From Streptomyces sp. NBC_00775 (lineage in GTDB: Bacteria; Actinomycetota; Actinomycetes; Streptomycetales; Streptomycetaceae): a DNA stretch of 64,000 bases. Where the stretch lies: positions 9,548,001 through 9,612,000 of the forward strand of contig NZ_CP108938.1 in NCBI RefSeq assembly GCF_036347135.1, given 5' to 3'. This document shows positions 1 through 19,381 of this stretch, in pieces (the first letter of the stretch is position 1; each line of letters opens with the position of its first letter). The notes beneath the pieces are model-generated. The model made no database searches. It worked only from the letters and a program-made list of their open reading frames with translations, and had not been told where the DNA came from. The translations under genes and the position numbers were made by a program.

Positions 1-3000
1 CACCGGCTGACCGCCGGCACACCGCTCGACCTCTTCCTGCTGGTCTCCTCGGCCGCCGGTGTCGTCGGCAACGCGGGCCAGGGCAACTACGCGGCGGCCA
101 ACGTCTTCCTCGACCAACTGGCCCATCACCGAAGGGCCCTGGGCCTGCCCGGCCTCTCGGTCTCCTTCGGCGCGTGGGCGGGCGAGGGCCTCGCCGCCGA
201 ACACGCCGACCTGGAGCGGATGGCCCGCCTCGGCCACCGCGCACTCACCCCCGACCAGGGCCGCGACCTCGTCGAACTCGCCCTGCGACGAGGCGCACCG
301 CACCTGGTCGCCTGGGCCCTGGACCTGCCCCGGCTGCGCGACCACACGGCGGCCGCGGGCGACGGTACGGCGGCGCTGTGGCGCTCGCTGCTCCCGGCTC
401 CCCGCACCGGCCAGGACGCCGGCGACGGCCTGGCGGACCGGCTGGCCCGGCTCCCTGAGACCGAACGCGCCGAACGCGTCCTGTCCCTGGTCCGCGAGGA
501 GGCCTCCCGCGCCCTCGGCCTGCGCTCGGCCGACTCCGTCCGCCCCGACCAGCCGCTGCGCGAACTCGGCATGGACTCGGTGACGGCGGTCGAACTCCGC
601 AACCGCATCGGCACCCGCATCGGCGCCAAGCTTCCCGCCACCCTGCTGTTCGACCACCCCACCGCCGCCCGGCTGGCCGAGTACCTGCTGACCACCGCCC
701 TCGCGACCGGCGACCGCGCCACCCGTCGCACCGCTCCCCAAAAGCAGCCCACCCGCACGGCTGCGTCCGCGGCTGACGAGCCGGTGGCCCTGGTGGCCAT
801 GGCCTGCCGTCTGCCGGGCGGCGTCAGCGACCCGGAAGACCTGTGGCACCTGGTCGCGGAGGGCCGCGACGCGGTGGGCCCGTTCCCGGCGGGACGCTGG
901 GACGTGGAGGCGCTGTACGACCCCGACCCGGACGCCATGGGCAAGTCGTACGCCCGCGAAGGCGGCTTCCTCGACGACAACGACCTGGAGACCTTCGACG
1001 CGGGCTTCTTCGGGATCACCCCGAAGGAAGCGGCCGCCATGGACCCGCAGCAGCGCCTGCTGCTGGAGACGGCGTGGGAGGCATTGGAGCGCGCCGGGAT
1101 CGTGCCCGACGACCTCGAAGGCAGCACCACCGGTGTGTACGTCGGCATGTTCGGCAGCGACTATCTGTCGGGCTCCCGACTCGACCAGCTGGACGGGTAC
1201 GTCGGTACGGGATCGGCGCTGAGCGTGGCCTCGGGACGGCTCGCGTACACGCTGGGGCTCACCGGCCCGGCGCTCACGGTCGACACGGCCTGCTCGTCGT
1301 CGCTCGTCGCGCTGCACCTGGCCGCGCACGCGCTGCGGTCGGGCGAGTGCGACCTCGCGCTCGCCGGCGGTGTGACGGTGATGGTGACGCCGGGAACCTT
1401 CGTCGAGTTCAGCCGGCTGCGGGGCCTGTCGCCGACCGGCCGCTGCCGCTCCTTCTCCGACGACGCCGACGGCGCCATCTGGGCCGAGGGCGCGGGCATG
1501 GTCGTACTGAAGCGGCTGAGTGACGCGCGGCGTGACGGTGACGAGGTGCTGGCCGTGCTGCGCGGCACGGCCATGAACCAGGACGGCCGCAGCCAGGGCC
1601 TGTCCGCGCCGAACGGTCCGGCACAGGAGCGGGTGATCCGGCGGGCGCTGGAGCTGTCCGGGCTGGAGCCCGCCGACATCGACTACGTGGAGGCGCACGG
1701 CACGGGCACGACACTGGGCGACCCGATCGAGGCGAACGCCCTGTCGCAGGTCTTCGGTGACTCGCGCCCGCAGGACCGCCCGCTGCACCTGGGTTCGCTC
1801 AAGTCCAACATCGGGCATACACAGGCGGCTTCGGGCGTGGTCGGGCTGATCAAGGTGGTGCAGTCACTGCGCCACCGGACCCTGCCGCGCACCCTGCACG
1901 CCGACACGCCCAGCAGGCACGTCGACTGGGACGGCAGCGGGCTGCACCTGCTGCACCAGACGGCGGCCTGGCCGTCGTCGCCGCAGCGCGTACGACGGGC
2001 CGGAGTGAGCGCCTTCGGGATCAGCGGAACCAACGCGCATGTGATCGTGGAGGAGGCCCCACCGGCCGACGCGCAGCCGACGGACCAACTCCCGCCGAGA
2101 AAGCGGATGTTCGTGCTCTCCGGCCGCAGTGAGGCCGCCCTTCGGGGGCAGGCCGCGCGGCTGGCCCAGTACGTGACCGAGGACACCGCCCTGCCGGAGA
2201 TCGCCCACACCCTGGCGCGGCACCGCGGCCACTTCGAACGGCGTGCGGCGATCGTGGCGGATGACCGGGACGAACTGCGGGACAGGCTCGCCGCGTTGGC
2301 GAGCGGACGGGCACCCCTCGCTCCGCCCCGCGAGGAGCGGACGGGCAAGGTGGCCTTCGTCTTCGCCGGGCACGGCGGTCAATGGCCGGGTATGGGCGTG
2401 GAGTTGATGGCGGGCTCGGACACGTTCCGCACGGAGCTGTCCCGCATCGACGAAGCGGTGCGCCGCCGGGTCGGCTGGTCCGTGCTCAACGCGCTGCGGG
2501 CGCCCGAGGAATTCACCCCGCTCGGCCGGACCGAGTTCCTGCAGCCGGTGCTCTTCGCGGTCAACGCGGCGCTTGCCGCCGCCTGGCGTGCGCTCGGCAT
2601 CGCCCCGGACGCCGTGGTCGGGCACAGCCTGGGCGAGATCGCCGCCGCCTACAGCGCGGGCGCCCTCACCCTGGACGACGCCGTGACCGTGGTGACCGGG
2701 CGCGCCCAGGCGGTCGTACCACTGGCGGGCAAGGGCGGCATGCTGTCCGTGGGACTGCCGCCCGCGCGGGTCGAGGATCTGCTCGCGCCGTACGCGGACC
2801 GCCTGTTCGTCGCCGCGGTCAACAGCGCCACCTCCACGGCCGTCTCCGGCGAGTCCGACGCGCTGGCCGCACTGCGCCACCACCTCGACGAGCAGGGAAT
2901 CCCCGCACGGCCGCTGTCGACTCCCTTCGCCTCGCACACCCCCTTGATGGACCCGCTCCGCGAAGAGCTGCTCGGTCGCTTCTCCGGCATCCGGGCCACC

Positions 3001-6000
3001 CGCACGCCGACGCCGCTGTACTCGACGGTGCTCGCCGAACCCCTGCCCGGGGACCGGCTCGACGCCGACTACTGGTACGCGAACCTCAGGGAGCCCGTCC
3101 GCTTCGCGGACACCGTCCGACGGATGCTGGACGACGGCTACCGTTACTTCGTCGAGCTGAGCCCGCACCCGTCGCTCATCTCGTCGATCGAGGCGGTGGC
3201 GGCCGAGGCCGGGATCGACGCGGTCGGCATCGGCTCGCTGCGCCGGCAGCAGGACGGGAGCGATGTCCTGCTGCGCAGGCTGGGGGAGTTGTACGTGGCC
3301 GGGCACACGCCCGACTGGCCGGTGCTGTTCCCGCGGGGCCGCCGGGTCGACCTGCCCACGTACGCTTTCGCCCGCGAACGCCACTGGCTCGCCCCCGCCC
3401 CGGCCACCGGGACGGCCGGCGGTTCACCGCTCCTCGGCACACACATCGAGGCCAGCGACGAAGTCGACCGGCACCTCTTCCAGACCGACATCGACCTGCG
3501 CGACAGCCGCTTCGCCTATCTCACCGACCACCGGGTCACGGGTGAGGTCTGGCTGCCCGGCGCCGCCTTCCTCGACATGGCCCTGGAGGCCGCGTCCGCG
3601 CTCCAGGGCGGCGGCGAAGTGCGGCTGACCGAGGTCAGGTTCCTGCAGCCGCTGTGTCTGGACGCGGACAAGCCCGTACGGCTGCAACTGGCCCTGCGGC
3701 CCGCCGAGGACGGCTGCCGCGAGTTCACCATCGCCTCGGCGACCGTCGGAGAGCGCGGCACGCGGTGGGAGCGGCACGTCAGCGGACGTGTCGCCGGCGC
3801 GGCCGAACCCATACCCGGTGCGGGCGAGCGGCTCGCCGCCCTCCGCGACCGTTGCGACGAAGAGGTCGAGCTGTCGGCCGTCTACGCCGGGCTCGCTGCC
3901 CTGGGCATCGACTACGGCCCGGCCTTCCGGGGCCTGGAAGAAGGCTGCCGTACGGACAGGGCGGCACTCGGCCGACTGGCCCGGACGCCCGCCGCCGGTC
4001 ATCTGCTGCACCCCGCGGTCCTCGACGCCGCCTTCCACGCGGCCGCCCTGCCCGGCGACGCGCCCGAGGGCCGGGCGTTCGTGCCCGCCGGCGTCGGACG
4101 ACTGCGATTCACCGGGCTGCGCACCACGCCCGCCTGGGTGACCTGCGAGCTGCGTTCCGCGGCCGGCGACACCGCGACCCTGGACCTGCGGCTGTGGGAC
4201 GAGGACGACCAACTGGTGCTGGAAGCCGAGGAGTTCGAACTGGCCGCGCTCTCACCCCTGGACGGTGCGCTCTTCGAGACCCGCTGGCAGCCCCGCCCGG
4301 CCGCGAAGGTGCCCTCGGCTAACGGCAGTTGGCTGATCCTGGCCGACAGCACCGGTGTCGCCGCCGAACTCGGCGAGCGCCTCGGCTCGACCGTGCCGCA
4401 GGTGATCGCCCGCCGGGGAGAGGCCTTCGCCGTCGAGGGTCCCGGCCGCTACGTCCTCGACCCGGCCGATCCGGACCAGCTGGCCCGGCTGCTCGACGAG
4501 GCGTTCCCGGACGGACTGCCCGAACAGGTGGTCCAGCTGTCCGCACTCGACGCCCCGGCGATCGAGGACGCGCGTACGGCCGAGGAGGCCGCACGGCTGT
4601 GCTGCCTGAGCACCCTGCATCTGGTGCGGACGCTCGCCGACCGCCCGCGGGGCCGGGCTCCCCGCCTGTTCGTCGTCGTACGGGGCAGCCAGGCCGCCGG
4701 TGACAGCACACAGGTGACGCACCCTCAGCAGGCGCTCGGCTGGGGCTTCGGCCTCGCCGTGGCGCAGGAGTATCCGGAGCTGTCGACCACACTGATCGAC
4801 CTGCCGGCCACGGACGGCGTCGCCGCCCTGTGGACGCAGTTGCGGCACGCGGACGACGAACGGCTGGTCGCGCTGCGGGAGTCGGGCCGTCTGGTGCCGC
4901 GGTTGGCCCGCACCCACGCCGACGACGGCGGTCACGGCGACATCACCCCGGACGGCGTGTACCTGATCACCGGAGGTCTGGGCGGTCTCGGCCGCGTCGT
5001 CGCCGAGCGACTGGTCCGCCGCGGCGCCCGCCGACTGGCCCTGCTGAGCCGAGGTACGCCCGACGCGGACACGGCGCACTGGATCAGGGACCTCGAAGAG
5101 CACGGCGTCGCCGTGCATCTCGCCCGCGCCGACGTCGCCGACCGCGAAGGACTGACGGCCGCCCTGGACGCCGTACGACGTGCGGCCGGCCCGATCGCCG
5201 GTGTCGTCCACGCGGCCGGTGTCCTCGACGACGCCACGGTGGCGAACCTGACCGACGAACGGGCCCTGCGCGTACTCGCCCCCAAGGTCCTCGGCACCAC
5301 CCTGCTCACCGAACTGATCCCGGAGGCCGGGAACCTCGTCCTCTTCGCCTCGGCGGCCGGTCTCCTCGGCTCCGCCGGGCAGAGCCCGTACTCGGCGGCG
5401 AACGCCTTCCTCGACGCCTGGGCGCACCACCTCGCCCGTACCGGCCGACGGGCGCTCAGCCTGGACTGGGGCGCCTGGACCGGCGTGGGCATGGTCGCCG
5501 AGTCCGGCACCCGGGCCGCCGAGACCAGCCGGTCCGGTCTGGTCGCGTTCTCCCCGCAGGACGGCGGTGAGCTGTTCGAGCGGGTACTGACCACCTCCCG
5601 CCGCCAGCTCGCTCCCCTCGCCCTGGACTGGGAGATGCTGGCCCTCGACCCGGACGCGGCACGCACCCGCCCGATCCTGGGCGACCTGATCACCGCCCCG
5701 ACGGGTACGGCGGACTCGGACGGTCTCGTCAAGAAGGTGTTCGCGGCGACCACGGACCACGACCGCGCGGTATGGCTCGAAGCGTACGTGCGCTCCAGGG
5801 TCACTGAGGTCTCCGGAGGCGCTGTGGACGTGTCCGCGACCACGGCCCTGAAGGAACTCGGCCTCGACTCCCTCATGCTGGTCCGGCTGCGCAATGCCTT
5901 CGCCCGTGAACTGGGCGCCGAACTCCCGGCCGCCGCGGTGTTCTCGGCGTCCGACATCCGCGGCCTGGCACGGACCCTGGGCGAGGCGCTGCCCGAGCGG

Positions 6001-9000
6001 GACACCGTGGCGCGGCGCGAGAGGGAGCCGGCCGCCGGCACCGCCGAGGTGCCCGAGAGCGAACTGCGGCCCGCGACCCGCGATGTCGTACGCCTGCTGC
6101 GCAGCGCCCGGCCGGACATGCCGGACGCGGCGCATGGCATCGGGCTGGCCGTACGGCTCACCACGCCGACCACCCACGAGACGCTCTCCGACGTCCTCAC
6201 CAGGCTCGCCGGCCGGCACGCGGCCCTGCGCACCGCGATCGTCAACGGCACCGGAGGCGAACGGGAGTTGAGGGTGGAACGGGAGCCGGCCGAGCCGCTG
6301 CTGCACTGGACGAACGTGGCCCCCGACGCCGAGCTCGACGCCGCCGACCGGCTACGCGGGCTGCTGGAGCCGCCGTTCGACCTGGCGAAGCCCTCGCTGT
6401 GGCGATTCGAGCTGCTCGACGCCGAAGTCCGGGGCCAGATCCTTGTGTTCGGCGCCCACCACGCGGTGAGCGATCTGCAGTCGCTGCTGCTCGTGGCAGG
6501 GGAGATCGACGCGGAACTGTCCGGCACCTCCCTCGGCGACGCCGTCACCAACCGCGACATCGACCAGCTGATCGAGGCCCAGCGACCCCAGCGGACCGAC
6601 GCCACCCCCGGCGAGGGCGCGGCCGAATGGCGCGAGGCCTTCCACGGCAGTGCGCGACTGGACCTGACGCTCGCCGCGCCGCGCCCGGCAGCACGCTCGT
6701 ACCGGGCGGGCAGCGTGACCGTGACGATCCCCGATGGGCTCATGGAACGGGTCTCGGCAGCCGCCGGCAGGCTCGCCATCACGCCCGCCGCCTTCTGCCT
6801 CGGCACCCTGACCGTGCTGCTGGCCCGGATGCGGGAGCGGGAGCGCTTCGTGCTCGCCGTGCCCGTGGACACGCGCATCCACGCCGACGCGTACGACGCG
6901 GTGGGCTTCTTCGGAGTGCCGGTGCCGTTCCCGGCCGAGGCCCGGGCGGGCGAGCGGATCGAGGACGTACTGCGCCGCACCGACGGCCGCCTCGACCGGG
7001 TCCTCGCCAAGGGCGCCATGTTCTCGGACGTGCTGTCGACGCTGGCCCGGCAGGGGCTGCACCGGGCGAACGCGCCGCTGGTGGAGGTGTACTTCAACTT
7101 CGTACGCTCCTCAGCGGGCCGCCTCGCCCACCTGGAGGTGCTGCCGGCCGGGACGGGCTACTCCGACCTCGACCTGATGATCACCATGACCCCGGACGAG
7201 GGCCGGATCAGGCTGGATCACAACCTCGACATCCTGGACGCGGCGACCTCCACGGGGCTGGGGGAGGAGTTCCTGCGACTGCTCGCGGAGGCTGTGCAGG
7301 ATCCGGCGACGCCGGTCCGTACAACGACGGACGCGACGGACGCGATGGTCGCGACGGACGCGACGGACGCGACGGTCGAGACAGTCCCTGCGATGTCCGA
7401 GGAGACCGGCCCCTCCCCGCGCCGCTCGCTCGCCCTCGCCGCCACCTTCGCCCTCGGCAATCTGCCGCTGCTCTGTGAGGCGGCGGTCGAGGAGGACGCG
7501 CGGGACGACGGCGGCCTGACGGTCGCGGAAGCCCCGTACCACCAGGTCCTCGCCGGCCTGCGCGACCCTTCGAGCGTCTTCGCCGACCCCGCCACGGCGG
7601 TGGGTGTGGTGCTGCTGCGGGCGGCGGACCTGGAACGGTTCGGCCCGGTGGACGACGTCCTGCTCGCCGAGCTGCGCACCGAGTACCCGGCCGCGCTGCG
7701 GGCCCTGTCCGAGCGGACCCGCAAGCCGCTGATCGTCGGCCTCCTGCCGTCCGCGCGAGCGGAGGACCGCCTGGCGCGCTGGGAGCGCGAAATCGCCGAC
7801 GAGCTGGCGGAGTTGCCCGGCATCGCGGTGCTGCGCCCTGACGACTGGACCCGGTACCACACCGTCGAGGAACGCTTCGACGAGCGGACCGAGCGGCTGG
7901 CCCACCTCCCCTTCACCCCGCACTTCCAGGCGGCGGTGGCCCTGCGTCTCGCCGAGGTCGTACGAGCGGTGCGGCGCCCCGCGCCCAAGGTGATCGCGGT
8001 GGACGGCGACGAGACCCTGTGGGGCGGGGTGGCCGGGGAGATCGGCCCGGACGCGGTGGACCTGACCGGCCCGCGTGCCCTGCTCGCGCGGCGGCTGTTG
8101 CGCTGGCGTGCCGCGGGCGCGCTGCTGGCGCTGGTCAGCAACAACGACGAGGACACGGTACGGGCCGTCCTGGACCGCCCCGACAGCCTGATGAAGGCGG
8201 AGCACTTCAGCGTGCTCTCCGCCGCCTGGGGCCCGAAGCCGGGCCGGCTGGCCGAGGCGGCACGCACGCTCAACCTCGGTCCGGACAGCTTCCTGTTCCT
8301 CGACGACAACCCGGTCGAGATCGCGGGAGTGCGGTCCGCGCTGCCGGAGGTGCTGTCGGTGACCTGCCCGCCCGCGGCCGAACTGGAGGAATTCCTGGGC
8401 CGGTTGTGGCCGCTGATACCGGCCGCGGCGACGGCCGAGGACGGACTGCGGGCACAGTTCTACGAGCAGGAGCGGGAACGGGACGCCGCACGCGAACAGG
8501 CCGGATCCGAGGAGGCCGGATTCGAGGAGTTCCTCGCCCACCTGGAACTCGAGGTCGACATCCGGGCCCTCTCCGAGGCCGACGTCGAGCGGGCCGGGCA
8601 ACTCGTCCGCCGTACCAACCAGTTCACCCTTCGCGCCCGGTCGGCCGACGGCGGCGATCTCGCCCGGTGGCGGGAGGGCGGCGAGGTGTGGACGGCGGCG
8701 GCCCGGGACCGGTTCGGCGACTACGGCCAGATCGGCCTGCTCGCCGTCCGCCGGGACGGCGACCAACTCGACGTCCTGGCCTGGCTGATGAGCTGCCGGG
8801 CACTCGGCCGAGGCGTCGAGGAACGCCTGTTGCGGTGGCTGGCCGACCGCGCCGACCAACTGGGCTGCGCGAAGGTCCGGCTGACGGCGGAGCGCACCCC
8901 GCGCAACGTACCGGCCCGCCGACTGCTGGCCGCGCTCGGCGGCGGCGACCAGGACGACCAGCTTCTGGAGAGCGTGGTCACGCCGGAACAGCTACGGGCC

Positions 9001-9024
9001 TTCCGCTCCTGGCGGCGGCAGTGA
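1..9024 (+). CDS. Modular type I polyketide synthase, 5' partial, ending in condensation-FkbH
   Basis: The reading frame is open from base 1, so the start lies left of the window; 3007 residues are visible. Domain order by nucleotide: end of a KR (1-300, catalytic Tyr codon 88), ACP (430-690, GMDS Ser codon 577), KS (778-2055, Cys codon 1291, His codons 1696 and 1816), AT (2350-3250, GHSLGE Ser codon 2626), DH (3420-4250, HxxxGxxxxP His codon 3529, Asp codon 4024), KR (4260-5680, GGLGGLG, LDD motif of B-type KRs, Tyr codon 5389), ACP (5740-6000, GLDS Ser codon 5869), condensation domain (6060-7320, HHAVSDL), and a full FkbH domain (7430-9010, DGDET in place of the usual DLDNT, C-terminal GNAT-like part with MSCRALGRGVE). 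Every visible catalytic residue of the full module is present. There is no thioesterase; release is probably done by the next gene. FkbH proteins are known to move glyceryl from 1,3-bisphosphoglycerate to an ACP. The AT substrate is unclear (FASH at the specificity motif). Confidence 0.95.
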   Translation, partial: HRLTAGTPLDLFLLVSSAAGVVGNAGQGNYAAANVFLDQLAHHRRALGLPGLSVSFGAWAGEGLAAEHADLERMARLGHRALTPDQGRDLVELALRRGAPHLVAWALDLPRLRDHTAAAGDGTAALWRSLLPAPRTGQDAGDGLADRLARLPETERAERVLSLVREEASRALGLRSADSVRPDQPLRELGMDSVTAVELRNRIGTRIGAKLPATLLFDHPTAARLAEYLLTTALATGDRATRRTAPQKQPTRTAASAADEPVALVAMACRLPGGVSDPEDLWHLVAEGRDAVGPFPAGRWDVEALYDPDPDAMGKSYAREGGFLDDNDLETFDAGFFGITPKEAAAMDPQQRLLLETAWEALERAGIVPDDLEGSTTGVYVGMFGSDYLSGSRLDQLDGYVGTGSALSVASGRLAYTLGLTGPALTVDTACSSSLVALHLAAHALRSGECDLALAGGVTVMVTPGTFVEFSRLRGLSPTGRCRSFSDDADGAIWAEGAGMVVLKRLSDARRDGDEVLAVLRGTAMNQDGRSQGLSAPNGPAQERVIRRALELSGLEPADIDYVEAHGTGTTLGDPIEANALSQVFGDSRPQDRPLHLGSLKSNIGHTQAASGVVGLIKVVQSLRHRTLPRTLHADTPSRHVDWDGSGLHLLHQTAAWPSSPQRVRRAGVSAFGISGTNAHVIVEEAPPADAQPTDQLPPRKRMFVLSGRSEAALRGQAARLAQYVTEDTALPEIAHTLARHRGHFERRAAIVADDRDELRDRLAALASGRAPLAPPREERTGKVAFVFAGHGGQWPGMGVELMAGSDTFRTELSRIDEAVRRRVGWSVLNALRAPEEFTPLGRTEFLQPVLFAVNAALAAAWRALGIAPDAVVGHSLGEIAAAYSAGALTLDDAVTVVTGRAQAVVPLAGKGGMLSVGLPPARVEDLLAPYADRLFVAAVNSATSTAVSGESDALAALRHHLDEQGIPARPLSTPFASHTPLMDPLREELLGRFSGIRATRTPTPLYSTVLAEPLPGDRLDADYWYANLREPVRFADTVRRMLDDGYRYFVELSPHPSLISSIEAVAAEAGIDAVGIGSLRRQQDGSDVLLRRLGELYVAGHTPDWPVLFPRGRRVDLPTYAFARERHWLAPAPATGTAGGSPLLGTHIEASDEVDRHLFQTDIDLRDSRFAYLTDHRVTGEVWLPGAAFLDMALEAASALQGGGEVRLTEVRFLQPLCLDADKPVRLQLALRPAEDGCREFTIASATVGERGTRWERHVSGRVAGAAEPIPGAGERLAALRDRCDEEVELSAVYAGLAALGIDYGPAFRGLEEGCRTDRAALGRLARTPAAGHLLHPAVLDAAFHAAALPGDAPEGRAFVPAGVGRLRFTGLRTTPAWVTCELRSAAGDTATLDLRLWDEDDQLVLEAEEFELAALSPLDGALFETRWQPRPAAKVPSANGSWLILADSTGVAAELGERLGSTVPQVIARRGEAFAVEGPGRYVLDPADPDQLARLLDEAFPDGLPEQVVQLSALDAPAIEDARTAEEAARLCCLSTLHLVRTLADRPRGRAPRLFVVVRGSQAAGDSTQVTHPQQALGWGFGLAVAQEYPELSTTLIDLPATDGVAALWTQLRHADDERLVALRESGRLVPRLARTHADDGGHGDITPDGVYLITGGLGGLGRVVAERLVRRGARRLALLSRGTPDADTAHWIRDLEEHGVAVHLARADVADREGLTAALDAVRRAAGPIAGVVHAAGVLDDATVANLTDERALRVLAPKVLGTTLLTELIPEAGNLVLFASAAGLLGSAGQSPYSAANAFLDAWAHHLARTGRRALSLDWGAWTGVGMVAESGTRAAETSRSGLVAFSPQDGGELFERVLTTSRRQLAPLALDWEMLALDPDAARTRPILGDLITAPTGTADSDGLVKKVFAATTDHDRAVWLEAYVRSRVTEVSGGAVDVSATTALKELGLDSLMLVRLRNAFARELGAELPAAAVFSASDIRGLARTLGEALPERDTVARREREPAAGTAEVPESELRPATRDVVRLLRSARPDMPDAAHGIGLAVRLTTPTTHETLSDVLTRLAGRHAALRTAIVNGTGGERELRVEREPAEPLLHWTNVAPDAELDAADRLRGLLEPPFDLAKPSLWRFELLDAEVRGQILVFGAHHAVSDLQSLLLVAGEIDAELSGTSLGDAVTNRDIDQLIEAQRPQRTDATPGEGAAEWREAFHGSARLDLTLAAPRPAARSYRAGSVTVTIPDGLMERVSAAAGRLAITPAAFCLGTLTVLLARMRERERFVLAVPVDTRIHADAYDAVGFFGVPVPFPAEARAGERIEDVLRRTDGRLDRVLAKGAMFSDVLSTLARQGLHRANAPLVEVYFNFVRSSAGRLAHLEVLPAGTGYSDLDLMITMTPDEGRIRLDHNLDILDAATSTGLGEEFLRLLAEAVQDPATPVRTTTDATDAMVATDATDATVETVPAMSEETGPSPRRSLALAATFALGNLPLLCEAAVEEDARDDGGLTVAEAPYHQVLAGLRDPSSVFADPATAVGVVLLRAADLERFGPVDDVLLAELRTEYPAALRALSERTRKPLIVGLLPSARAEDRLARWEREIADELAELPGIAVLRPDDWTRYHTVEERFDERTERLAHLPFTPHFQAAVALRLAEVVRAVRRPAPKVIAVDGDETLWGGVAGEIGPDAVDLTGPRALLARRLLRWRAAGALLALVSNNDEDTVRAVLDRPDSLMKAEHFSVLSAAWGPKPGRLAEAARTLNLGPDSFLFLDDNPVEIAGVRSALPEVLSVTCPPAAELEEFLGRLWPLIPAAATAEDGLRAQFYEQERERDAAREQAGSEEAGFEEFLAHLELEVDIRALSEADVERAGQLVRRTNQFTLRARSADGGDLARWREGGEVWTAAARDRFGDYGQIGLLAVRRDGDQLDVLAWLMSCRALGRGVEERLLRWLADRADQLGCAKVRLTAERTPRNVPARRLLAALGGGDQDDQLLESVVTPEQLRAFRSWRRQ
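7327..7382 (+). repeat. Short 9-bp-unit repeats in the linker between C and FkbH domains
   Basis: The inter-domain linker is built from repeated gcgacggac-like units, coding a run of Asp-Ala-Thr triplets broken by Met-Val and Thr-Val. All unit lengths keep the frame. It looks like a slippage-prone flexible tether. The changes of unit number would alter linker length but not the domains. Confidence 0.7.
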
Positions 9025-9125
9025 GCGGGTGGGAAGCGGGTCGGCCGCCTCTGGCGGCAGTGGCCCTGAGGGATGGGAAGCAGTGGCAGTGAGCGAGTGG
9101 ACCGTGCACAGAGTGAAGGGCTCTC

Positions 9126-11600
9126 ATGCGTGATGTGAACGAGGCCGCGCCGGCGTACGCCGGACAGCGGGCGACCGGCGAGTCGATCGAGCGGGGCGGC
9201 GGCGGGCTCGGCGTGGACGCCCTGCTGGCCAAGGTCAGGACCGCCGAGGCGCCCTCGCCGACCGGCCCTGACGCCGGTTCGGATCCCGGTTCCCGTACCG
9301 CCCCGGCTCCCCCGGTCCCGGACGTGGACGGGCTGGCCACCGCCATCGCCGCCGCGGCGGGCCCGCATCTGCCCGAGGGACACCTCTCGCCCGACGCCGA
9401 CTTCTTCGACGCCGGTGGCAGTTCCGTCGGCGCCGTAGAACTCGTCGCGCAGCTGGAACGCGAACTTGGCCTGGAGATCAGCCTGGACGACGTGTTCGCC
9501 GACGCCCGGCCCCGCAGCCTCGCCCAGCGCTGGCTGTCGACCGCGGGAGCCACGGCGGTCCTCTCGGTCCCGGCGCTGCCCGCGGGAAGCCTGGCGGCCT
9601 CGGCCCCGGCCACTTCGGGAACCTCGCCCACCCCGGGCACCCTTCCGCTCTCCGCCGCGGGCACCCGCCCGGCCGCCGCCCCGGGCACCCTTCCCGTCCC
9701 GGCCCCCCGCACCCCACCCGCGACGGCGATCACGACCCGGCCGGGCAACAGCGACACCCCCTACTCCATGGCCCGTCCCGAGGACCTCGACCAGATCCTG
9801 GCCGACCTCTCCCTCGCCGACCGTCTGCCCTGGACCAGCACGCCCGAGGCGTTGCCGCCCCGCCGGATCCTGCTGACCGGTGCCACCGGCTTCCTCGGCA
9901 GCCATATGCTCCTCGACCTGTTGCGGCACAGCGACGCGCACGTCTACTGCCTGGTCCGCGCCGCCGACGAGGAGACGGCCACCGCCCGGCTCGGCGACGC
10001 GCTCAAGAGCTACCGGCTGCCCTGGTCGTCGGAGGTCCGCCGCCGGGTGACCGTGCTCCCCGGCGACATCAGGCGCCCGCACCTGGGCCTGTCCGACGAG
10101 CTGTGGAACGCGCTCGCCCATGAGCTGGACAGCGTGGTCGGCGTGGCGGCGGCCGTGGACTTCCTGCGCGGCTACCAGTCGCTCAGGCAGAGCAATGTCA
10201 TCGGCTCACTGACCCTCGCCGAACTGGCGGCGACCGGCCGGCCCAAGCCGCTGCACCACATTTCCTCGATCGCGGTCTTCAACGAGGTCGGCATCACGGC
10301 CATGGGCGAGGACGACCCGCTCGCCCACGTCGACCGCCTCATCGCGGGCTACGACCAGACGAAGTGGGCCGCCGAGGTCGCTCTGCGCCGGGCTCGCGAC
10401 CACGGTCTGATCGTCACGGCCATGCGCCCCGGCGGCATCGGCGGCCACACCAGGACCGGCGCCTACAACCCGCAGGACCTCAGCAGCGGCCTCATCTCGG
10501 CCTTCGGCCGCTTCCGCACCGTGCCCGCCTTCCACTATCTGAACGCGGCCCCGGTCGACTGGGTGAGCCGGGTCGCGGTCGGCGTCGTCTGCGAACCCGA
10601 CGCGTGGGGCTACGACTACCACCTCACCGGCGTACCCAACACCCTCGACGACGTCGTACGGGACATGGCGTTCGGCGGCATGCACGTACGCGTACAGGAC
10701 TGGGACGAGTGGCGCACCGACGCCCTGGCCCGCCTGGAGGCCGAGCCCGTGCCCGAACTGGGCTTCCTGGCACGGGTGTTGCAGAGCCCCACCGCCCTCA
10801 AGCTGTGCGAGGCGACACTGAAGGGCCCGGCGGCCACCGACGACCGTACCGCCGCGCTCGTCGAGACGCTCGGGCTCCCGCCGGCGGCCCGCTATGACGC
10901 CCAGGCCCAGCTGAAGACGTTCGAGCGGCTCGCCCAGGACGGCCTGGCCCGGCTGCCACACAAGGACGACCAGCCGTACCTGTGGTTCTCCGAGACGACC
11001 GAGGGCGGTGTCGGCCCGGTCGGAGCCCCCGCCGACACCCCCTGCTCGATGGCGCTCACCCTCTCCATCGCGAGCATGTACCAGTTGGTGAAGGAACGCC
11101 GGGTCGACGTCAGCGGCGAGCTGACCTGCCCGGCGGTGCACCCCGAACCCCTGGTCGTCGAGCGCGGCGACGTCTGGATCCGCCCCGACGAAGGCATCCC
11201 GCACCAGCACGGTCTGCGGCACCAACTCCTCACCTACCGGCTGTCGTTGCTCGACGCCGACGGCGGGCGCTGGTGGCTGGAGGGCAACAAGCACGCCCGG
11301 GCCCGCCGTGACGTCTGGCGGCAGACCCGCGCGCTGACGGTCGAGATCGGCCGCGAGGGCGAACCGGCAGCGCTGGCCGGCGAGGTCGTCGTGCCCGCCG
11401 ACAGCTACATACGTGACCAGGTCGACGGCATCAAGGTCGACCCGCGCCTGAGCAGCCAGGAGAAGCGGGCCGCCAAGCTGACCTGGCTCGCCTGGTTCGG
11501 CCTGGAGATGGGCCGCGGCCTGCTCGGCCCCTTCGCCCGGGCCGCGGCCGACCTCCTCGACCTGCGCCGCACCCAGACCCCCTCGGAGCACCGCCGATGA
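9126..11600 (+). CDS. ACP-thioester reductase-(GMC/hydrolase-associated domain) fusion protein
   Basis: 824 residues; starts 101 bp after the PKS stop with an AAGGG ribosome site. Residues about 60-140 are an acyl carrier protein (GGSS, phosphopantetheine Ser codon 9423). A Pro/Ala/Thr-rich linker follows to about residue 215. Residues about 245-610 are a thioester reductase of the NAD(P)H Rossmann type (TGATGFLGSH; Tyr codon 10350 and Lys codon 10362 in YDQTK), as in terminal R domains that release NRPS/PKS products as aldehydes or alcohols. Residues about 620-810 resemble, from memory, the stretch between the GMC oxidoreductase and hydrolase parts of long actinobacterial cholesterol-oxidase-like proteins; its function is unknown to me. 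The ACP is probably the carrier that the FkbH domain charges. The 3' end overlaps the next start by 4 bp (ATGA), so the two are likely co-translated. Confidence 0.9.
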   Translation: MRDVNEAAPAYAGQRATGESIERGGGGLGVDALLAKVRTAEAPSPTGPDAGSDPGSRTAPAPPVPDVDGLATAIAAAAGPHLPEGHLSPDADFFDAGGSSVGAVELVAQLERELGLEISLDDVFADARPRSLAQRWLSTAGATAVLSVPALPAGSLAASAPATSGTSPTPGTLPLSAAGTRPAAAPGTLPVPAPRTPPATAITTRPGNSDTPYSMARPEDLDQILADLSLADRLPWTSTPEALPPRRILLTGATGFLGSHMLLDLLRHSDAHVYCLVRAADEETATARLGDALKSYRLPWSSEVRRRVTVLPGDIRRPHLGLSDELWNALAHELDSVVGVAAAVDFLRGYQSLRQSNVIGSLTLAELAATGRPKPLHHISSIAVFNEVGITAMGEDDPLAHVDRLIAGYDQTKWAAEVALRRARDHGLIVTAMRPGGIGGHTRTGAYNPQDLSSGLISAFGRFRTVPAFHYLNAAPVDWVSRVAVGVVCEPDAWGYDYHLTGVPNTLDDVVRDMAFGGMHVRVQDWDEWRTDALARLEAEPVPELGFLARVLQSPTALKLCEATLKGPAATDDRTAALVETLGLPPAARYDAQAQLKTFERLAQDGLARLPHKDDQPYLWFSETTEGGVGPVGAPADTPCSMALTLSIASMYQLVKERRVDVSGELTCPAVHPEPLVVERGDVWIRPDEGIPHQHGLRHQLLTYRLSLLDADGGRWWLEGNKHARARRDVWRQTRALTVEIGREGEPAALAGEVVVPADSYIRDQVDGIKVDPRLSSQEKRAAKLTWLAWFGLEMGRGLLGPFARAAADLLDLRRTQTPSEHRR

Positions 11601-12733
11601 TCCTCAGAACGACCAACTCCCGTACCTGGCCCGCGATGCGCAAGGTGAGGACCACCGCGGCCCTGCGCCCCCTTCGGCACCGCCTCGATCCGGCGACGGT
11701 CGAGGAGATCCCCTTCCGGGCGGGCGACGGCGTACGCCTCGGCCTGACCCGTATCGACAGCGGCGAGCCGGACCGGCCCGCCGTACTGCTCCTGCACGGG
11801 CACACCGCCTCCGCCGACATGTTCCTGCTGCCCGAGACCCGCAACCTGGTCGACGTCCTCCTCGACGACGGCTACGAGCCCTGGCTGCTCGACTGGCGGG
11901 GCAGCTGCCGGCTGCCGTACAACGAGACGGGCCAGAGGTACACGTACGACGATGTCGCCCTGTACGACATCCCCGAGGCCGTCTCCCACATCCGGCAACG
12001 CATCGGCGACCGGCCGCTGTTCGTGGTCGCCCACTGCATCGGCTCGCTCACGCTGTCGCTGAGCATGACGGCGGGGCTGGTGCCGGGGCTCGCGGGCGTG
12101 GTGTCGCAGGGGGTGTTCCTGACGCCGAAGCTGGCGGGCCGCACCTCGCTGCGGATGTCGGTGGCCGGGGAGCTGCTGAAGTCCCGGATCGATCACATCC
12201 CGGTCGACTTCCGCACGGTGGGCTTCTGGTCGAAGTACACCCCGCTGTTCGCACTGGCCTCCCGGAAGGCGAGCTGCCCGGATCCGACCTGCCAGATCCT
12301 GCACAACTCGGCCTGGGGGACCGGCGCTTCACTGTTCGTGCACGAGCACCTGTCCGAGGCGACCCACCACCGGCTCGCCGAGCTGCTCGGACCCGCGCCG
12401 CTGTGGATCCTGCCGCATCTGCGCCGCATCGAGCTGGCCCGTACGGTGGTGCGCTGGCACGACGGCGACCACCGCTACCGGGCGCTGCCGCCCAACGCGC
12501 TGGACGCCGCCGCCCGTATCGACACCCCCGTCCTGCTGCTCGCGGGCAGCGAGAACGGCCTGTGGCTGGATTCCCAGAAGCTCTGCCACGACGTACTCGC
12601 CCGCAGACAGCCTCAGCTGGACGTGACGTACACCGAGATCCCCGGCTACGGCCACCTCGACACGTTCCTCGGCCGGGGCGCCGCTCTCGACGTGTTCGGG
12701 CACATCCTCGATTTCCTCGGCGAACAACGGTGA
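11597..12733 (+). CDS. Alpha/beta hydrolase with Cys at the nucleophile elbow
   Basis: 378 residues, translationally coupled to the reductase gene. The fold signature is clear: LLLHGHTAS oxyanion region, nucleophile elbow AHCIGS (Cys codon 12035) in place of the usual GxSxG, late GYGHLDTF with the catalytic His, and an acidic residue in ENGLWLD. It resembles the C-terminal hydrolase part of long GMC-oxidoreductase/hydrolase proteins, whose preceding domain is fused to the neighbouring reductase. A Cys nucleophile is known in PHA synthases (GxCxG) and in some thioesterase-like enzymes, so acyl transfer is as likely as hydrolysis. Probable role: a final acyl transfer or hydrolysis on the released polyketide. 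Substrate unknown. Confidence 0.85.
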   Translation: MILRTTNSRTWPAMRKVRTTAALRPLRHRLDPATVEEIPFRAGDGVRLGLTRIDSGEPDRPAVLLLHGHTASADMFLLPETRNLVDVLLDDGYEPWLLDWRGSCRLPYNETGQRYTYDDVALYDIPEAVSHIRQRIGDRPLFVVAHCIGSLTLSLSMTAGLVPGLAGVVSQGVFLTPKLAGRTSLRMSVAGELLKSRIDHIPVDFRTVGFWSKYTPLFALASRKASCPDPTCQILHNSAWGTGASLFVHEHLSEATHHRLAELLGPAPLWILPHLRRIELARTVVRWHDGDHRYRALPPNALDAAARIDTPVLLLAGSENGLWLDSQKLCHDVLARRQPQLDVTYTEIPGYGHLDTFLGRGAALDVFGHILDFLGEQR

Positions 12734-12749
12734 CGGCGGCCCGGGCGGC

Positions 12750-12774
12750 CGGTTACCGTACGCGTCAGTAACCG
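12750..12774. promoter_or_regulatory. 7-bp inverted repeat before the second hydrolase gene
   Basis: CGGTTAC and GTAACCG flank an 11-base loop in the 62-bp gap between hydrolase genes, 21 bp before the next ATG. There is no T-run, so an operator or weak attenuator is more likely than a terminator. Confidence 0.35.
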
Positions 12775-12795
12775 ACCGCACCGCAGGAGGCACCG

Positions 12796-13575
12796 ATGCC
12801 GCAGCTCGAAGTCGACGGCGCAGCACTGACGTACGACGACGAGGGCCCCCGGGACGGTGACGGCGTGCCCCTGGTGTTCATCCACGGCTGGACGGCCAAC
12901 CGGCACCGCTGGGACCACCAGGTGGCGCACTTCTCGTCCAAGCGGCGGGTCATACGGCTCGACCTGCGCGGGCACGGCGAGAGCACCGGGTCGGGAGCGC
13001 GAGCGGTCGACGAGCTGGCCCGGGACGTCATCGCCCTCCTCGACCACCTGGAGGTCGACCGGTTCGTCCCGGTCGGCCACTCCATGGGCGGGATGATCTC
13101 GCAGACCCTCGCCCTCGCCCACCCCGAGCGGGTCGAGCGCATGGTGCTGGTGGACTCGATCAGCCGGATGACCTACAGCCGGGGGCGGGGCCTGCTGATG
13201 GCGGTGTCCACGCTGGTGCCGTTCAAGCTGTTCGTCGCCGCCAATATCCAGCGGGCGTTCGCCCCCGGCTACCCCCGCGATGAGATCCGCGGCTACGTCA
13301 AGGCCTCCGCGGCGACGCCCAAGGAGGTGGTGATGACCTGCTACGGCGCCATGCGCGACTTCGACGTCCTGGACCGCGTCGGCGAGATCACGGCACCCAC
13401 CCTCCTGGTGCACGGTTTCCACGACATCCAGCTGCCCGTCTCGCAGATGCTGCGGATGGCGAAGGCCTACCCGGACGCGGTGGTACGCATCGTGGACGCC
13501 GGCCACGAACTCCCGGTGGAGAAGCCGGCCGAACTGACGTCGACGCTCGACTGGTTCCTGACCGGCCGGGCGTGA
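12796..13575 (+). CDS. Alpha/beta hydrolase
   Basis: 259 residues; ATG preceded by GCAGGAGGCACCG, a strong ribosome site. Motifs: FIHGWTAN oxyanion loop, DLRGHGES, nucleophile elbow GHSMGG, acidic residue in HGFHDIQLP, and catalytic His in DAGHELP. These give a complete Ser-Asp-His triad of the canonical single-domain fold, as in type II thioesterases, esterases and haloperoxidase-like enzymes. It is the second of four hydrolases in a row on this strand. A small inverted repeat lies just upstream, so expression may be separately tuned. Substrate cannot be told from the sequence. Confidence 0.85.
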   Translation: MPQLEVDGAALTYDDEGPRDGDGVPLVFIHGWTANRHRWDHQVAHFSSKRRVIRLDLRGHGESTGSGARAVDELARDVIALLDHLEVDRFVPVGHSMGGMISQTLALAHPERVERMVLVDSISRMTYSRGRGLLMAVSTLVPFKLFVAANIQRAFAPGYPRDEIRGYVKASAATPKEVVMTCYGAMRDFDVLDRVGEITAPTLLVHGFHDIQLPVSQMLRMAKAYPDAVVRIVDAGHELPVEKPAELTSTLDWFLTGRA

Positions 13576-13714
13576 GGACCCCGGGCGCCGAGGCGTCGGG
13601 CTGTCTTTCCGGCACTTTGGCTGCGGCGCCCGTGACCGCGCCGGACACTGAAGGGAACCTCCCGGCGGGCCGTCCCCGAGCCCTGTCACCCCACGCGCTC
13701 CGAGGAGTCACGGC

Positions 13715-14530
13715 ATGCCGCTTCTTCGTACAGGTGACCTGAACCTCTACTACCAGGTCGCCGGGGAGGGCGATCCGCTCGTCTTCGTCCACGGCTCCTG
13801 GAACGACCACACATCGTGGCAGCCCGCGATCGAAGCCGACCTCCGGTCGTCGTTCCGGGTGATCAGCTTCGACCGTCGTGGCCACGGGCAGAGCGAGGCG
13901 GGGCCGGGCCAGGGCACCCGCCGACAGGACGAGGACGACCTCGAGGCCCTGATCGAGCGGCTCGGACCCGCGCCCGCGCACGTGGCCGGCAACTCCTTCG
14001 GCGCGTCGATCTCGCTCGGTCTGGCCGCACGCCGCCCCGAGCTGTTCCGCACCATCACGGTCCACGAGCCCCCGCTCGTCGGGCTCGTGGCCGACGACCC
14101 GGACGCCATGAAGGAACTGGCTCCGGCGAAAGCCTCGATCGACGCGGCCCTCGACCATCTCCGCAAGGGCGAGTACGAGCAGGGCGCGCGGCAGTTCGTG
14201 GAGGAGGTCGCACTCGGACCCGGCATGTGGGACCGGCTGCCCGCCGAGACGCGCGAGACATTCGTGCACAACGCGCCCACCTGGCTGGACGAACAGTCCG
14301 ACCCGGTCTGGGACCAGCTGGACGTGGCAGCCCTCGCGCGCTGCACCGCGCCCGTGCTGCTGAGCCGCGGCACCGAGAGCCCGCAGTGGCTGAGCACGAT
14401 CCTCGACCGGCTGGCCGCGGCCCTGCCACACGCACAGCGGCAGACCCTCGAAGGATCGGGGCACATCCCCCACGTCACCCATCCAGAGCAGTACGTCGCC
14501 GCACTCACCCGCTTCATCCGGGCGGCCTGA
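13715..14530 (+). CDS. Alpha/beta hydrolase
   Basis: 271 residues; ATG follows CCGAGGAGTCACGGC. Motifs: FVHGSWND, FDRRGHGQS, nucleophile elbow GNSFGA, and His in GSGHIPHV. The acid partner is probably in the SRGTESPQW stretch, where the usual Asp seems to be replaced by Glu. The 139-bp gap to the previous gene suggests its own promoter. The family includes esterases and C-C bond hydrolases. Third of four adjacent hydrolases; possibly cluster tailoring, possibly unrelated housekeeping at the cluster edge. Confidence 0.82.
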   Translation: MPLLRTGDLNLYYQVAGEGDPLVFVHGSWNDHTSWQPAIEADLRSSFRVISFDRRGHGQSEAGPGQGTRRQDEDDLEALIERLGPAPAHVAGNSFGASISLGLAARRPELFRTITVHEPPLVGLVADDPDAMKELAPAKASIDAALDHLRKGEYEQGARQFVEEVALGPGMWDRLPAETRETFVHNAPTWLDEQSDPVWDQLDVAALARCTAPVLLSRGTESPQWLSTILDRLAAALPHAQRQTLEGSGHIPHVTHPEQYVAALTRFIRAA

Positions 14531-14713
14531 GACACCTCCCCGAGGTCCCCCGGGCCCCGGGCGGGGACGACGCCGCGCCGGCGATGCCATCGGCGGACTT
14601 CCGTGCCACAGCGCGGGCCCTGCCGCCGATCGGTACTGTCGGAAGTGATCACCGCTCGCTGTCCGCTCCCGGTTCCCGGACCCGGGCGGCCGAGCGGAAG
14701 GAGGCAGGGCGTC

Positions 14714-15532
14714 GTGACCGTGATCTCCCTGAAGTCCGCGCAGGTACGGGAAGGGCTCACCCTCCCCTATGGCGAAGCCGGGTACCCCAGCGGCACACCG
14801 GTCCTCTTCGTGCACGGGCTGGCCGACTCCTGGTGGTCCTTCGAGCCCCTCCTCAGACGCCTCCCGGCGTCCTTGCACGGCTACGCACCCACCCAGCGCG
14901 GCCACGGCGACGCCGACCGCCCTCCCGACGGCTACGCCCCCGAGGACTTCGCCTCCGATCTCGTGGCCTTCCTCGACGCCGTCGACATCCGCCGCGCCCT
15001 CCTCGTCGGATCCTCCAGCGGCGGCGTGCCCGCCCGCATGGTCGCGGGCAGCCACCCCGACCGGATCGCGGGACTGGTACTGATCGGCGTCCCCGGGACA
15101 CTTGAGGACAAGCCGGCGGTGACCGCGATGCGGGAGACCGTCCAGGGCCTCTCCGATCCCGTCCCCCGCGAGTTCGTCGAGGAGTTCCTGGCCGGCATGG
15201 TGGCCAGGCCGGTCGCCAGAGGACTCATGGAGACCATGATCGAGGAAAGCCTCAAGGTCCCCGCCCACGTCTGGAAAGACACCCTGAGCGGTCTGCTCGA
15301 AGCCGATCTCCCCGCGACCCTCGCAGGCATCCTGGTGCCCACGCTCGTCATCTGGGGCGACCAGGACGACTTCCTGCCGCGCGGCGACCAGCAGACCATC
15401 CTGGACGCCATCCACGGAGCGCGCCTTCTCACGTACGAAGGCGTAGGCCATGTCGTCCACTGGGAAGAGCCCGAACGCGTCGTCGCCGACATCGCCGCCT
15501 TCGCCGCGGAGCGGTCGTACGAAGCGGAATGA
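14714..15532 (+). CDS. Alpha/beta hydrolase
   Basis: 272 residues. The open frame extends upstream to 14603, but a GTG at 14714 has AAGGAGG at the right distance, so I start there. Motifs: LFVHGLADSWW, nucleophile GSSSGG, acid GDQDDF, and His in GVGHVVHWEEP, a full triad in the order seen in 2-hydroxymuconate-semialdehyde-hydrolase-like enzymes. It ends the run of four hydrolases. Its stop codon overlaps the start of a 36-codon frame. Substrate unknown. Confidence 0.82.
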   Translation: MTVISLKSAQVREGLTLPYGEAGYPSGTPVLFVHGLADSWWSFEPLLRRLPASLHGYAPTQRGHGDADRPPDGYAPEDFASDLVAFLDAVDIRRALLVGSSSGGVPARMVAGSHPDRIAGLVLIGVPGTLEDKPAVTAMRETVQGLSDPVPREFVEEFLAGMVARPVARGLMETMIEESLKVPAHVWKDTLSGLLEADLPATLAGILVPTLVIWGDQDDFLPRGDQQTILDAIHGARLLTYEGVGHVVHWEEPERVVADIAAFAAERSYEAE

Positions 15533-15639
15533 GGGGCAGGACCGCGCTGCCGGAGCACGCGGCGGCGGAGGCCTCGGACCTGCGCGGCGTTGTGGTGCTG
15601 CGCAGGGGACCCGCGGCCCCCGCCGACGTCAGCGTGTGA
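15529..15639 (+). CDS. Possible 36-residue coupled micro-ORF
   Basis: An ATG overlaps the preceding stop as ATGA and opens 36 codons (start MRGRTALPEH, end PADVSV). No recognisable family. It may be a remnant of a longer gene or chance, since any short frame survives easily at this GC content. The coupled start is the only positive sign. Confidence 0.25.
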   Translation: MRGRTALPEHAAAEASDLRGVVVLRRGPAAPADVSV

Positions 15640-15643
15640 GGGC

Positions 15644-15907
15644 TCAGGACGTCTCGTCGTCCGGCTTCGCCGGCTGCTCCTTGCTCGTAGGGTCGTCCTC
15701 GGAGGTGTCGAGTTCGTGCATCCGGCGATGGATGGCCTCGCGCAGGCTCTCACCGCCAGGTCGCGTGGGAGCGGTGGCGGCGGGATCCGCCGGTGGTCCG
15801 GCCGGATGCTCCGGCGGTTCGGACGCGAGCTGATCGATCACCTCATGCAGGTGGTCGGCGCGGTCCTTGCCGTCGTTCTTCTCGTCTGCCACGTTCTCGT
15901 CTGCCAC
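15644..15907 (-). CDS. Small acidic hypothetical protein
   Basis: 87 residues from a GTG preceded by CGGAGG. The frame stays open further upstream into the neighbouring gene, but only this start has a ribosome site and it falls 50 bp after that gene's stop. The protein is rich in Asp, Glu, Lys and Pro, begins VADENVADEKNDGKDRADH, and has no membrane segment or Cys. Charge and lack of hydrophobic core suggest a disordered or helical accessory protein, likely co-transcribed with the upstream gene. Confidence 0.6.
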   Translation of the reverse strand: MADENVADEKNDGKDRADHLHEVIDQLASEPPEHPAGPPADPAATAPTRPGGESLREAIHRRMHELDTSEDDPTSKEQPAKPDDETS

Positions 15908-15957
15908 GGCGCACCTCCGTTCCGGGCGGTCCGAGTGCGGTCGTCCTCCCCATTGTC

Positions 15958-16839
15958 CTACCCGTTGTCCTGATCGCCCTCTTCCCAGGTGCCTTCGACG
16001 ACGGGCCCGGCCTGTAGCTCGTCGACGCGGCTGCGCCACCCGTTGGCGCGGGACTGGGTGGACTCCTTCACCGCGGCGGTCAGGGTGCGGGCGGCGGCGA
16101 AGCGATCGGACCGAGGGCCACTGGCGGCGATGCGCGCGATGGTTCCCGTACGGGAGTCGATGGCCGAGCGCAGGCTGCCGGCGCGGGCGGTCAGACGGCC
16201 CAGGTCGCGGAAGCGGGGCTGGTCGCTGTCGAACCAGATCTGCTGCCACCAGTGGTCGCTGACCGGGTCGTGCCAGCTGATGTAGCCGCCGGGCAGGATC
16301 TTGCGCGGGCCGTCCAGCTTGCCGGTGAAGCTGTAGCGCACACCGGGGGCGGCGACCGGGTCGTAGAAGTTCGGGGTGAAGAAGTCCGACATCAGCATGC
16401 CGTTGATGGTGTAGCCGTTCTCCGGCGCCTCCGACGGATCCGCGACCTCCACGAGGAACTCCACCACGCCCTGGCCGGGCTTGGGGGACTGGCCGGCGAC
16501 CAGCCGGTTGCCGCCGGGGTCGCCGAGCATCTCCAGCATCTCGTGGCTGGCGGTCATCGACCAGCTGTCGCTGTACTCGATCAGCGAGAAGGGCTGGCCG
16601 TTGTTGTCGAGGTGGACACCGGCCGCTCCGGCCTGCTGGATGTCATCACGGACGATCATGGGCCAGTAGCCGACCGGAACGTCGTCGAGCTTGTCGAAGG
16701 CGTCGACGCTGGCCGGGATCTTCCAGATCGGGTCGAAGTCCCGGATGGCCTGTTTCTGTAGCGCGGCGGCGACCCGGTTGAGCTGGGACGGGGTGATCTG
16801 GTCGCTCTCGGACACCAGGGCAAGGTGGGTGACAAGCAT
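15958..16839 (-). CDS. Conserved hypothetical protein with an HExxE motif
   Basis: 293 residues; ATG preceded by ACAGGAGCCCGGC. The core holds SHEMLEMLGDP, so a His-Glu-x-x-Glu arrangement resembling zinc or iron sites, followed by an acidic EFLVEVADPSEA strand and an aromatic segment (SWHDPVSDHWWQQIWF). No signal peptide or membrane helix is evident. I do not recognise an experimentally characterised relative; a metal-dependent enzyme is a guess from HEMLE. The last 70 residues look like a separate helical tail. Followed by a small acidic protein gene on the same strand. Confidence 0.75.
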   Translation of the reverse strand: MLVTHLALVSESDQITPSQLNRVAAALQKQAIRDFDPIWKIPASVDAFDKLDDVPVGYWPMIVRDDIQQAGAAGVHLDNNGQPFSLIEYSDSWSMTASHEMLEMLGDPGGNRLVAGQSPKPGQGVVEFLVEVADPSEAPENGYTINGMLMSDFFTPNFYDPVAAPGVRYSFTGKLDGPRKILPGGYISWHDPVSDHWWQQIWFDSDQPRFRDLGRLTARAGSLRSAIDSRTGTIARIAASGPRSDRFAAARTLTAAVKESTQSRANGWRSRVDELQAGPVVEGTWEEGDQDNG

Positions 16840-19259: not shown

Positions 19260-19315
19260 CCGCACCCTCCATTCCTCGATCTTCCGCGACCCTAGCGCAC
19301 CCCGTTCCCCCTCGA

Positions 19316-19363: not shown

Positions 19364-19381
19364 CAGTGGGAGGGGTACGGC

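Follow-up and report, generated by a model that had tools for sequence, protein, structure and literature searches.

The closest described relative of the locus reported here is the foxicin (fox) cluster of Streptomyces diastatochromogenes Tu6028, described in 2017 (PMC5318452). The gene table of that paper gives foxA (371 aa), foxBI (583 aa), foxBII (4807 aa, with the same domains as found here), foxBIII (945 aa), foxEI (378 aa) and foxEII (259 aa). In the sections cited here, FoxBI is labelled as an A domain and FoxBIII as PCP-TE, loading of FoxBIII with glyceryl by FkbH is already proposed, and the cluster is reported from Streptomyces only (PMC5318452). The product, foxicin A, is presented there as an amide of an aminoquinone, and its structure contains no glyceryl ester; the compound is lost upon disruption of foxBII (PMC5318452).

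Two further types of module serve as points of comparison. BurF, the malleicyprol synthase, has the order PKS-ACP-C(HHxxxDx)-NEX-T-Red, and the cited part of the study reports that in vitro an ester linking the chain to a T-bound hydroxyacyl unit is formed and then reduced with NADPH to an aldehyde, which was trapped, with surrogates; activity was lost on mutating the C-domain His and the Red Tyr (PMC12304814). Its T domain is described as being loaded by other proteins and not by FkbH, the authors suppose that the HAD and acyltransferase parts have been lost, and the name NEX is taken from their work (PMC12304814). In BurF the reduction ends with the aldehyde, which goes on to cyclise, and myxalamid is given as the example of a four-electron release (PMC12304814). 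In vioprolide biosynthesis, as outlined in the sources, a FAAL-ACP-C-FkbH-T arrangement carries out glycerate esterification, and corramycin has the same module order (PMC8949500, PMC10099666).

The window, that is, the whole stretch of 64,000 nucleotides that was analysed, opens within a gene cluster which, judged by gene order and identity, is a foxicin-type (fox) cluster and as such already described. The preliminary description, which knew of no described pathway with this split between two proteins, is superseded on that point, FkbH-dependent glyceryl loading of FoxBIII being in print (PMC5318452). The features are as follows.

1..9024, + strand: foxBII-type PKS gene, 3′ part, ...KR-ACP-KS-AT-DH-KR-ACP-C-(NEX-like)-FkbH
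5803..6015 (approximate ends), + strand: last PKS ACP, the donor carrier for the finished chain, motif LGLDSL
6148..7329, + strand: condensation domain (PF00668), motif HHAVSDL (HHxxxDx; the final G is missing, as in BurF)
7438..7965, + strand: N-terminal extension of FkbH (NEX-like region), placed by FkbH homology and position, with ends set by us
7978..8955, + strand: FkbH domain (HAD phosphatase and acyltransferase), DGDET at about 8002-8016 and conserved Cys (MSCR) at about 8794-8796
9126..11600, + strand: foxBIII-type gene, carrier protein, thioester reductase (TR) and C-terminal domain, 824 aa
9369..9530 (about), + strand: carrier domain, PCP-like DFFDAGGSS (PP-binding, 1.2e-12)
9867..10793, + strand: thioester reductase domain, GATGFLG and GYDQTKW (TIGR01746), fold nearest the MxaA R domain
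10923..11597, + strand: C-terminal beta-rich domain, remote kin of the GMC oxidoreductase C-terminus
11597..12733, + strand: E1, foxEI-type alpha/beta hydrolase of acid-lipase-like character, nucleophile Cys for Ser (VAHCIG), overlaps the TR stop codon
12796..13575, + strand: E2, foxEII-type alpha/beta hydrolase, GHSMG
13715..14530, + strand: E3, alpha/beta hydrolase
14603..15532, + strand: E4, alpha/beta hydrolase

The genome of the foxicin producer is represented by Streptomyces sp. Tue6028 (L041), which shows the same gene order and the published lengths, with frames of 945 aa (11169-14006), 378 aa (14003-15136) and 259 aa (15204-15983), and with a GNAT gene, a 490-aa frame and the ligase upstream of the PKS. 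Our locus likewise has the order FoxBI-BII-BIII-EI-EII with a PKS ending in C-FkbH, upstream of which an acyl-AMP ligase is preceded by a GNAT gene. The window TR protein is 77% identical to FoxBIII of Tue6028 over 793 columns and the other window domains are 74-90% identical, values that lie, for the domains and TR protein compared, within the published range of 73-96%. Both loci fall into one six-row clade of a quick tree (SH-aLRT 93). Their AT, DH and KR motifs match save for single residues, and the two share the pattern of two methylmalonyl-type ATs and an unusual DH1 motif, HxxxGxxxxS; we take the AT motif YASH to specify methylmalonyl, FASH being less clear. Because the AT and DH motifs agree, the side chains of the window product should equal those of Tue6028, given the same starters.

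The surroundings are less constant. Of 25 distinct upstream stretches, only 2 contain the GNAT gene of the foxA position, and the frame in the foxGI position was found in the producer only. Right of about 15.6 kb the window holds regulators, sugar genes and others with no evident link to the cluster. DeoR-SIS-aldolase genes at 18480-21164 stand at the place of the paper's foxRV, foxGII and foxGIII; since a DeoR gene lies within 10 kb downstream of the C-FkbH and TR genes in only two of 78 loci (L034 and L041), these genes are probably chromosomal neighbours. Further along, the frame at 37866-40100 (744 aa), which has a favourable codon signal and drew no Pfam hit at 1e-5, adjoins an 810-aa beta-helix/AAA protein on the opposite strand.

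The foxBII-type gene has its start some 5 kb upstream of the window (L003:14991, by gene call) and, once joined, reads 4677 aa without a stop, as far as the stop at 9024, in the domain order ACP-KS-AT-DH-KR-ACP-KS-AT-DH-KR-ACP-C-FkbH (Pfam/NCBIfam). Condensation (PF00668) matches residues 2050-2443 (6148-7329) at 1.7e-25 and FkbH (TIGR01686) residues 2660-2985 (7978-8955) at 6.2e-126 with the full model covered. The full-length FkbH domain retains both DxDxT and the conserved Cys, which has a catalytic role, as befits an FkbH glyceryltransferase/phosphatase, and it is single-copy in the 11.1 Mb genome. No carrier or thioesterase was found by Pfam/NCBIfam 3′ of FkbH in the PKS protein. The same models bear out the preliminary description of a PKS that terminates in C-FkbH with neither ACP nor TE, followed by a gene for an ACP and then a thioester reductase. 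What that account overlooked is that the roughly 175 aa separating C from FkbH are part of the N-terminal extension of FkbH proteins; the NEX-like region also occurs in free-standing FkbH proteins (frames of 724-734 aa), with a 41% match from query residue 2.

The protein encoded at 9126-11600 matches NAD_binding_4 at 1.1e-54 and the thioester reductase model TIGR01746 at 7.3e-73. It thus has the makings of a terminal thioester reductase, namely a carrier followed by an SDR-type R domain with GxxGxxG, YxxxK and a known R fold: the AlphaFold model (mean pLDDT 73) has the MxaA R domain as its best match (TM 0.85 by target length). The producer's FoxBIII is likewise composed of PP-binding and NAD_binding_4 without a thioesterase, and a thioesterase within FoxBIII was rejected, none being detected at E 0.001 in either the window protein or that of the producer. 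The published fox release step is probably mislabelled, and the TE label may stem from a UniRef name such as the "Thioester reductase (TE)" borne, in shortened form, by one relative. Our analysis proposes a correction of this step for the foxicin family.

Behind the reductase the protein continues for a further 225 aa or so, a domain likewise missed at first. In a comparison with 45 frames, this C-terminal domain matched the C-terminus of the two GMC proteins that adjoin Cys-type E1 relatives (2.4e-7 and 1.9e-4) and that of an 832-aa frame of G407 (2.7e-10). The C-terminal domain and E1 together resemble a pair adjoining GMC oxidoreductases in two actinobacterial genomes (L150, L151, L152).

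The FoxBI label also calls for revision. Among solved structures, the window FoxBI-type protein matches FadD32, FadD23, 3pbk and FadD28, named as fatty-acid-AMP ligases, at 6e-99 to 1e-62, and above these stand entries labelled as polyketide synthase and as saframycin synthetase B, which we take to be FAALs too; entries named for amino acid adenylation follow at 2e-42 or weaker. Being nearest FAALs and not amino-acid A domains, the FoxBI-type protein is, on these matches, a fatty acyl-AMP ligase. Of 26 upstream stretches, 25 contain a FAAL (24 of 25 once L165 and Tue6028, which are one contig, are counted together), and in both domain-mapped Nocardia frames (N. wallacei and N. stercoris) it forms the N-terminus of the PKS itself. 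These assignments bear on the published model, in which FoxBI, as an A domain, supplies an activated amino acid to which the chain is coupled on glyceryl-loaded FoxBIII, before a thioesterase cuts the product free. As far as the cited text goes, that model accounts for the nitrogen of foxicin A (PMC5318452). We nonetheless give it very little credence, given a FoxBI-type protein that is a FAAL by sequence and precedes the first ACP in both Nocardia frames, and a FoxBIII with a reductase in place of the thioesterase.

Conservation beyond the two foxicin genomes is extensive. Among 293 sampled genomes of the order, a C-FkbH query drew matches at E 1e-30 from 89. Both the C and FkbH parts occur in 34 of them, all of one genus, at 58-85% identity to the query apart from its own genome; the other matches are FkbH or C alone. 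Outside that genus, the named loci include a fox-type cluster in Amycolatopsis and the same genes on other lines in Nocardia, Kitasatospora, Actinacidiphila and Catenuloplanes. Altogether 78 named loci carry the C-FkbH fusion, 68 of them with at least 4.2 kb downstream. The check put forward with the first reading, a search of related loci for C-FkbH followed by carrier-TR genes, found the pair at 67 of the 68, in each case with E1; the remaining locus (L043), which spans a scaffold gap, has the carrier part only. Because the same TR gene recurs in this way, the arrangement cannot be put down to chance. FkbH DxDxT is present in 78/78 loci, the FkbH Cys motif in 77/78 (L110 being without it as read) and HHxxxD in 77/78 (L063 being without it as read), one locus having G at position seven of the motif. 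The reductase YxxxK is kept in 68/72, the four misses being contig ends or a gap. The strict GxxGFxG pattern is met by 66/72; L090 and L097 miss it, yet an alignment (A2) that contains both shows all three glycines unchanged throughout. The strict carrier motif is found in 48/72, the remainder being variant or outside the search pattern.

The assembly lines in front of these genes differ: a bimodular PKS in fox, a FAAL fused to the PKS in Nocardia, AMP-binding-KS-AT-DH-KR-ACP in S. albireticuli, and in S. coeruleorubidus (L123:10470-18218) a trans-AT-like KS-carriers-C-FkbH protein without AT or KR in its Pfam list. Because of this variety, C-FkbH, carrier-TR and E1 look like a portable cassette. 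The S. coeruleorubidus-type locus is adjoined by large divergent PKS/NRPS-like genes, and L121 is similar by BLAST. Some genomes, namely G006, G144 and Streptomyces sp. 1-11 (L077, L106), contain two distinct C-FkbH cassettes: a fox-type one and a second that belongs to another assembly line. Beyond the core of FAAL, PKS, TR, E1 and E2, no gene family downstream of E1 was found in more than 11 of 65 loci, and none upstream of the ligase in more than 11 of 26 stretches.

The partner of FkbH can be approached through other FkbH proteins. Among the 114 relatives listed, 52 are non-fox; 15 of these have a carrier, in all 15 behind FkbH, and one (P0180) reads C-NEX-FkbH-T. In the other 37 of the matches listed, mostly free-standing FkbH, no carrier was found. 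Since carriers follow FkbH elsewhere and the split falls between them, the carrier that opens the following gene would, by position, be the natural FkbH acceptor in trans. A fused C-FkbH-T-R protein, which would be direct proof of the pairing, was sought and is present in none of the 78 loci, nor was a reductase domain found among the 114 FkbH relatives listed (proteins of up to about 1700 aa).

Alongside the genes, domains, motifs and joint conservation observed here, we consider it reasonably probable that glyceryl ester formation followed by reductive release constitutes the off-loading end of the foxicin-type line. By homology, the FAAL would load a short acid onto the first ACP, and the two methylmalonyl-type modules would lengthen the chain, leaving it on the last ACP. 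FkbH (NEX-HAD-acyltransferase) would dephosphorylate 1,3-bisphosphoglycerate and transfer the glyceryl unit to the carrier of the separate reductase protein, as its homologues do. The C domain, being of the HHxxxDx type, would then esterify the chain onto a glyceryl hydroxyl, and the reductase domain would free either an O-acyl-glyceraldehyde or, if it reduced a second time, the alcohol. E1, the Cys-type acid-lipase-like hydrolase, might conceivably work on that ester thereafter. Glyceryl loading, esterification and reductive release were put forward in the preliminary description, and the likelihood of this route derives from the BurF reconstitution, the vioprolide precedent and the fact that the cassette keeps the HAD and acyltransferase parts. 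The retained motifs and the carrier order speak for it as well; the inference as to the product is countered by the amide found in foxicin A. Our full-text search of open-access papers returned none on reductive release from a glyceryl carrier in the fox cluster and, within the same scope, no assay of any fox-cluster enzyme.

Within this route, the reductase could deliver four electrons and free a mono-acylglycerol in place of the aldehyde. Sequence and fold both point to MxaA as the nearest solved R domain, and the cited study treats myxalamid as a four-electron case (PMC12304814). On the other side, how many electrons are delivered is not fixed by a resemblance in fold, and BurF halts at the aldehyde (PMC12304814). 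The variant is possible but doubtful.

The structure of foxicin A speaks against a glyceryl-ester product. Foxicin A may be formed later, for instance once E1 has transferred the chain; otherwise the acceptor would not be plain glyceryl. C domains usually form amides, and here the domain might do so with an amine-bearing unit on the trans carrier or a free amine, FkbH delivering a unit other than plain glyceryl or having another role. The isolated compound, being itself an amide in the available description, agrees with this (PMC5318452). We still think it unlikely: the conserved core delimited above contains neither an amine-forming nor a ring-forming gene, the C motif is HHxxxDx as in the ester-forming BurF, and a PF01959 AHBA synthase occurs in neither the producer nor the window genome but in 2 of the 23 genomes searched with it. 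The same search led us to reject a GriH-type 3,4-AHBA synthase as the origin of the foxicin aromatic ring, PF01959 (DHQS-type AHBA synthase) being presumably, like GriH, tied to 3,4-AHBA.

The four alpha/beta hydrolase genes 3′ of the TR gene (11597-15532), also absent from the preliminary description, could release the chain. E1 and E2 might act as stand-alone thioesterases, leaving the reductase on a shunt or idle. Their linkage favours such a role: E1 follows TR at 67 of 68 loci, at 66 of 67 its reading frame stays open through the TR stop codon, which makes co-translation with the reductase probable, and E2 is present at 38 of 47 fox-clade loci. Against it stand the R-domain YxxxK kept almost throughout, the absence of E2 from all 21 other loci, and the character of E1, which is acid-lipase-like with Cys as the nucleophile in 67/67 (VAHC/IAHC or VAQC; the related gastric lipase has VGHSQG). 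We therefore judge hydrolytic release very unlikely. E3 and E4 have no match above 50% identity in the 68 related loci with 6 kb downstream. Of four distant frames compared, two are E1 relatives with Cys, both of which adjoin GMC oxidoreductases, one has GHSMG and one is no evident E1. As GMC and TR enzymes both yield a carbonyl, the pair formed by the C-terminal domain and E1 may act on carbonyl lipids.

Returning to glyceryl-ester formation with reductive release, a wider proposal, speculative and decidedly on the improbable side, would make the cassette a portable reductive off-loader common to several unrelated lines. Soluble O-acyl-glyceraldehydes, or acylglycerols, would then be activated acyl donors from which E1 passes the chain to an amine, and beta-keto chains, as from the AT-less S. 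coeruleorubidus line, would give a hydroxymethyl-butenolide as in BurF, the butenolide being the product expected of that type by analogy. If true, E1 transfer to an amine would reconcile the glyceryl machinery with the foxicin A amide. The natural C-FkbH / T-R split pair would offer a two-protein in vitro system for ester off-loading from glycolytic 1,3-bisphosphoglycerate.

Set beside the known systems, the locus agrees with the Tu6028 cluster in the foxBI-BII-BIII-EI-EII order, domain order, FoxEI/EII lengths and AT/DH/KR motifs, and differs from it in lacking a gene at the foxGI position and in having two extra hydrolases. E1 resembles the gastric and lysosomal acid lipases (PDB 1hlg, 1k8q, 6v7n), the alignment of its profile with theirs running across the nucleophile elbow (E 3e-14 to 1e-9) and being only weak in the catalytic His region, the lipase nucleophile Ser being Cys in E1. 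The MxaA R domain (PDB 4u7w, 4w4t), best match to the window reductase domain in fold and sequence, is the terminus of the myxalamid PKS-NRPS and lies in cis with its line. With BurF, fox shares ACP-C with the C motif HHxxxDx, a T-Red pair and, by the proposed route, esterification followed by NADPH-driven release; the region behind C is a putative NEX, judged by position and FkbH homology. In BurF, T and Red are in cis, whereas the fox T-Red is a separate gene and FkbH retains its HAD and acyltransferase parts. The fox C-NEX-FkbH is likely an intact relative of BurF's lone NEX. The last fox module also has KR and DH, so that no beta-keto group is expected, and because their motifs look active a BurF-like ring closure is not expected either. 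With vioprolide, fox has in common the FAAL start and C-FkbH, the glycerate ester bond being that of vioprolide; in vioprolide and corramycin, as outlined in the cited work (PMC8949500, PMC10099666), T lies in cis behind FkbH, which is not the case here, no reductase is named, and the acid goes from FAAL-ACP directly to C with no PKS extension. The fox release chemistry would thus be a variation on BurF- and vioprolide-type modules.
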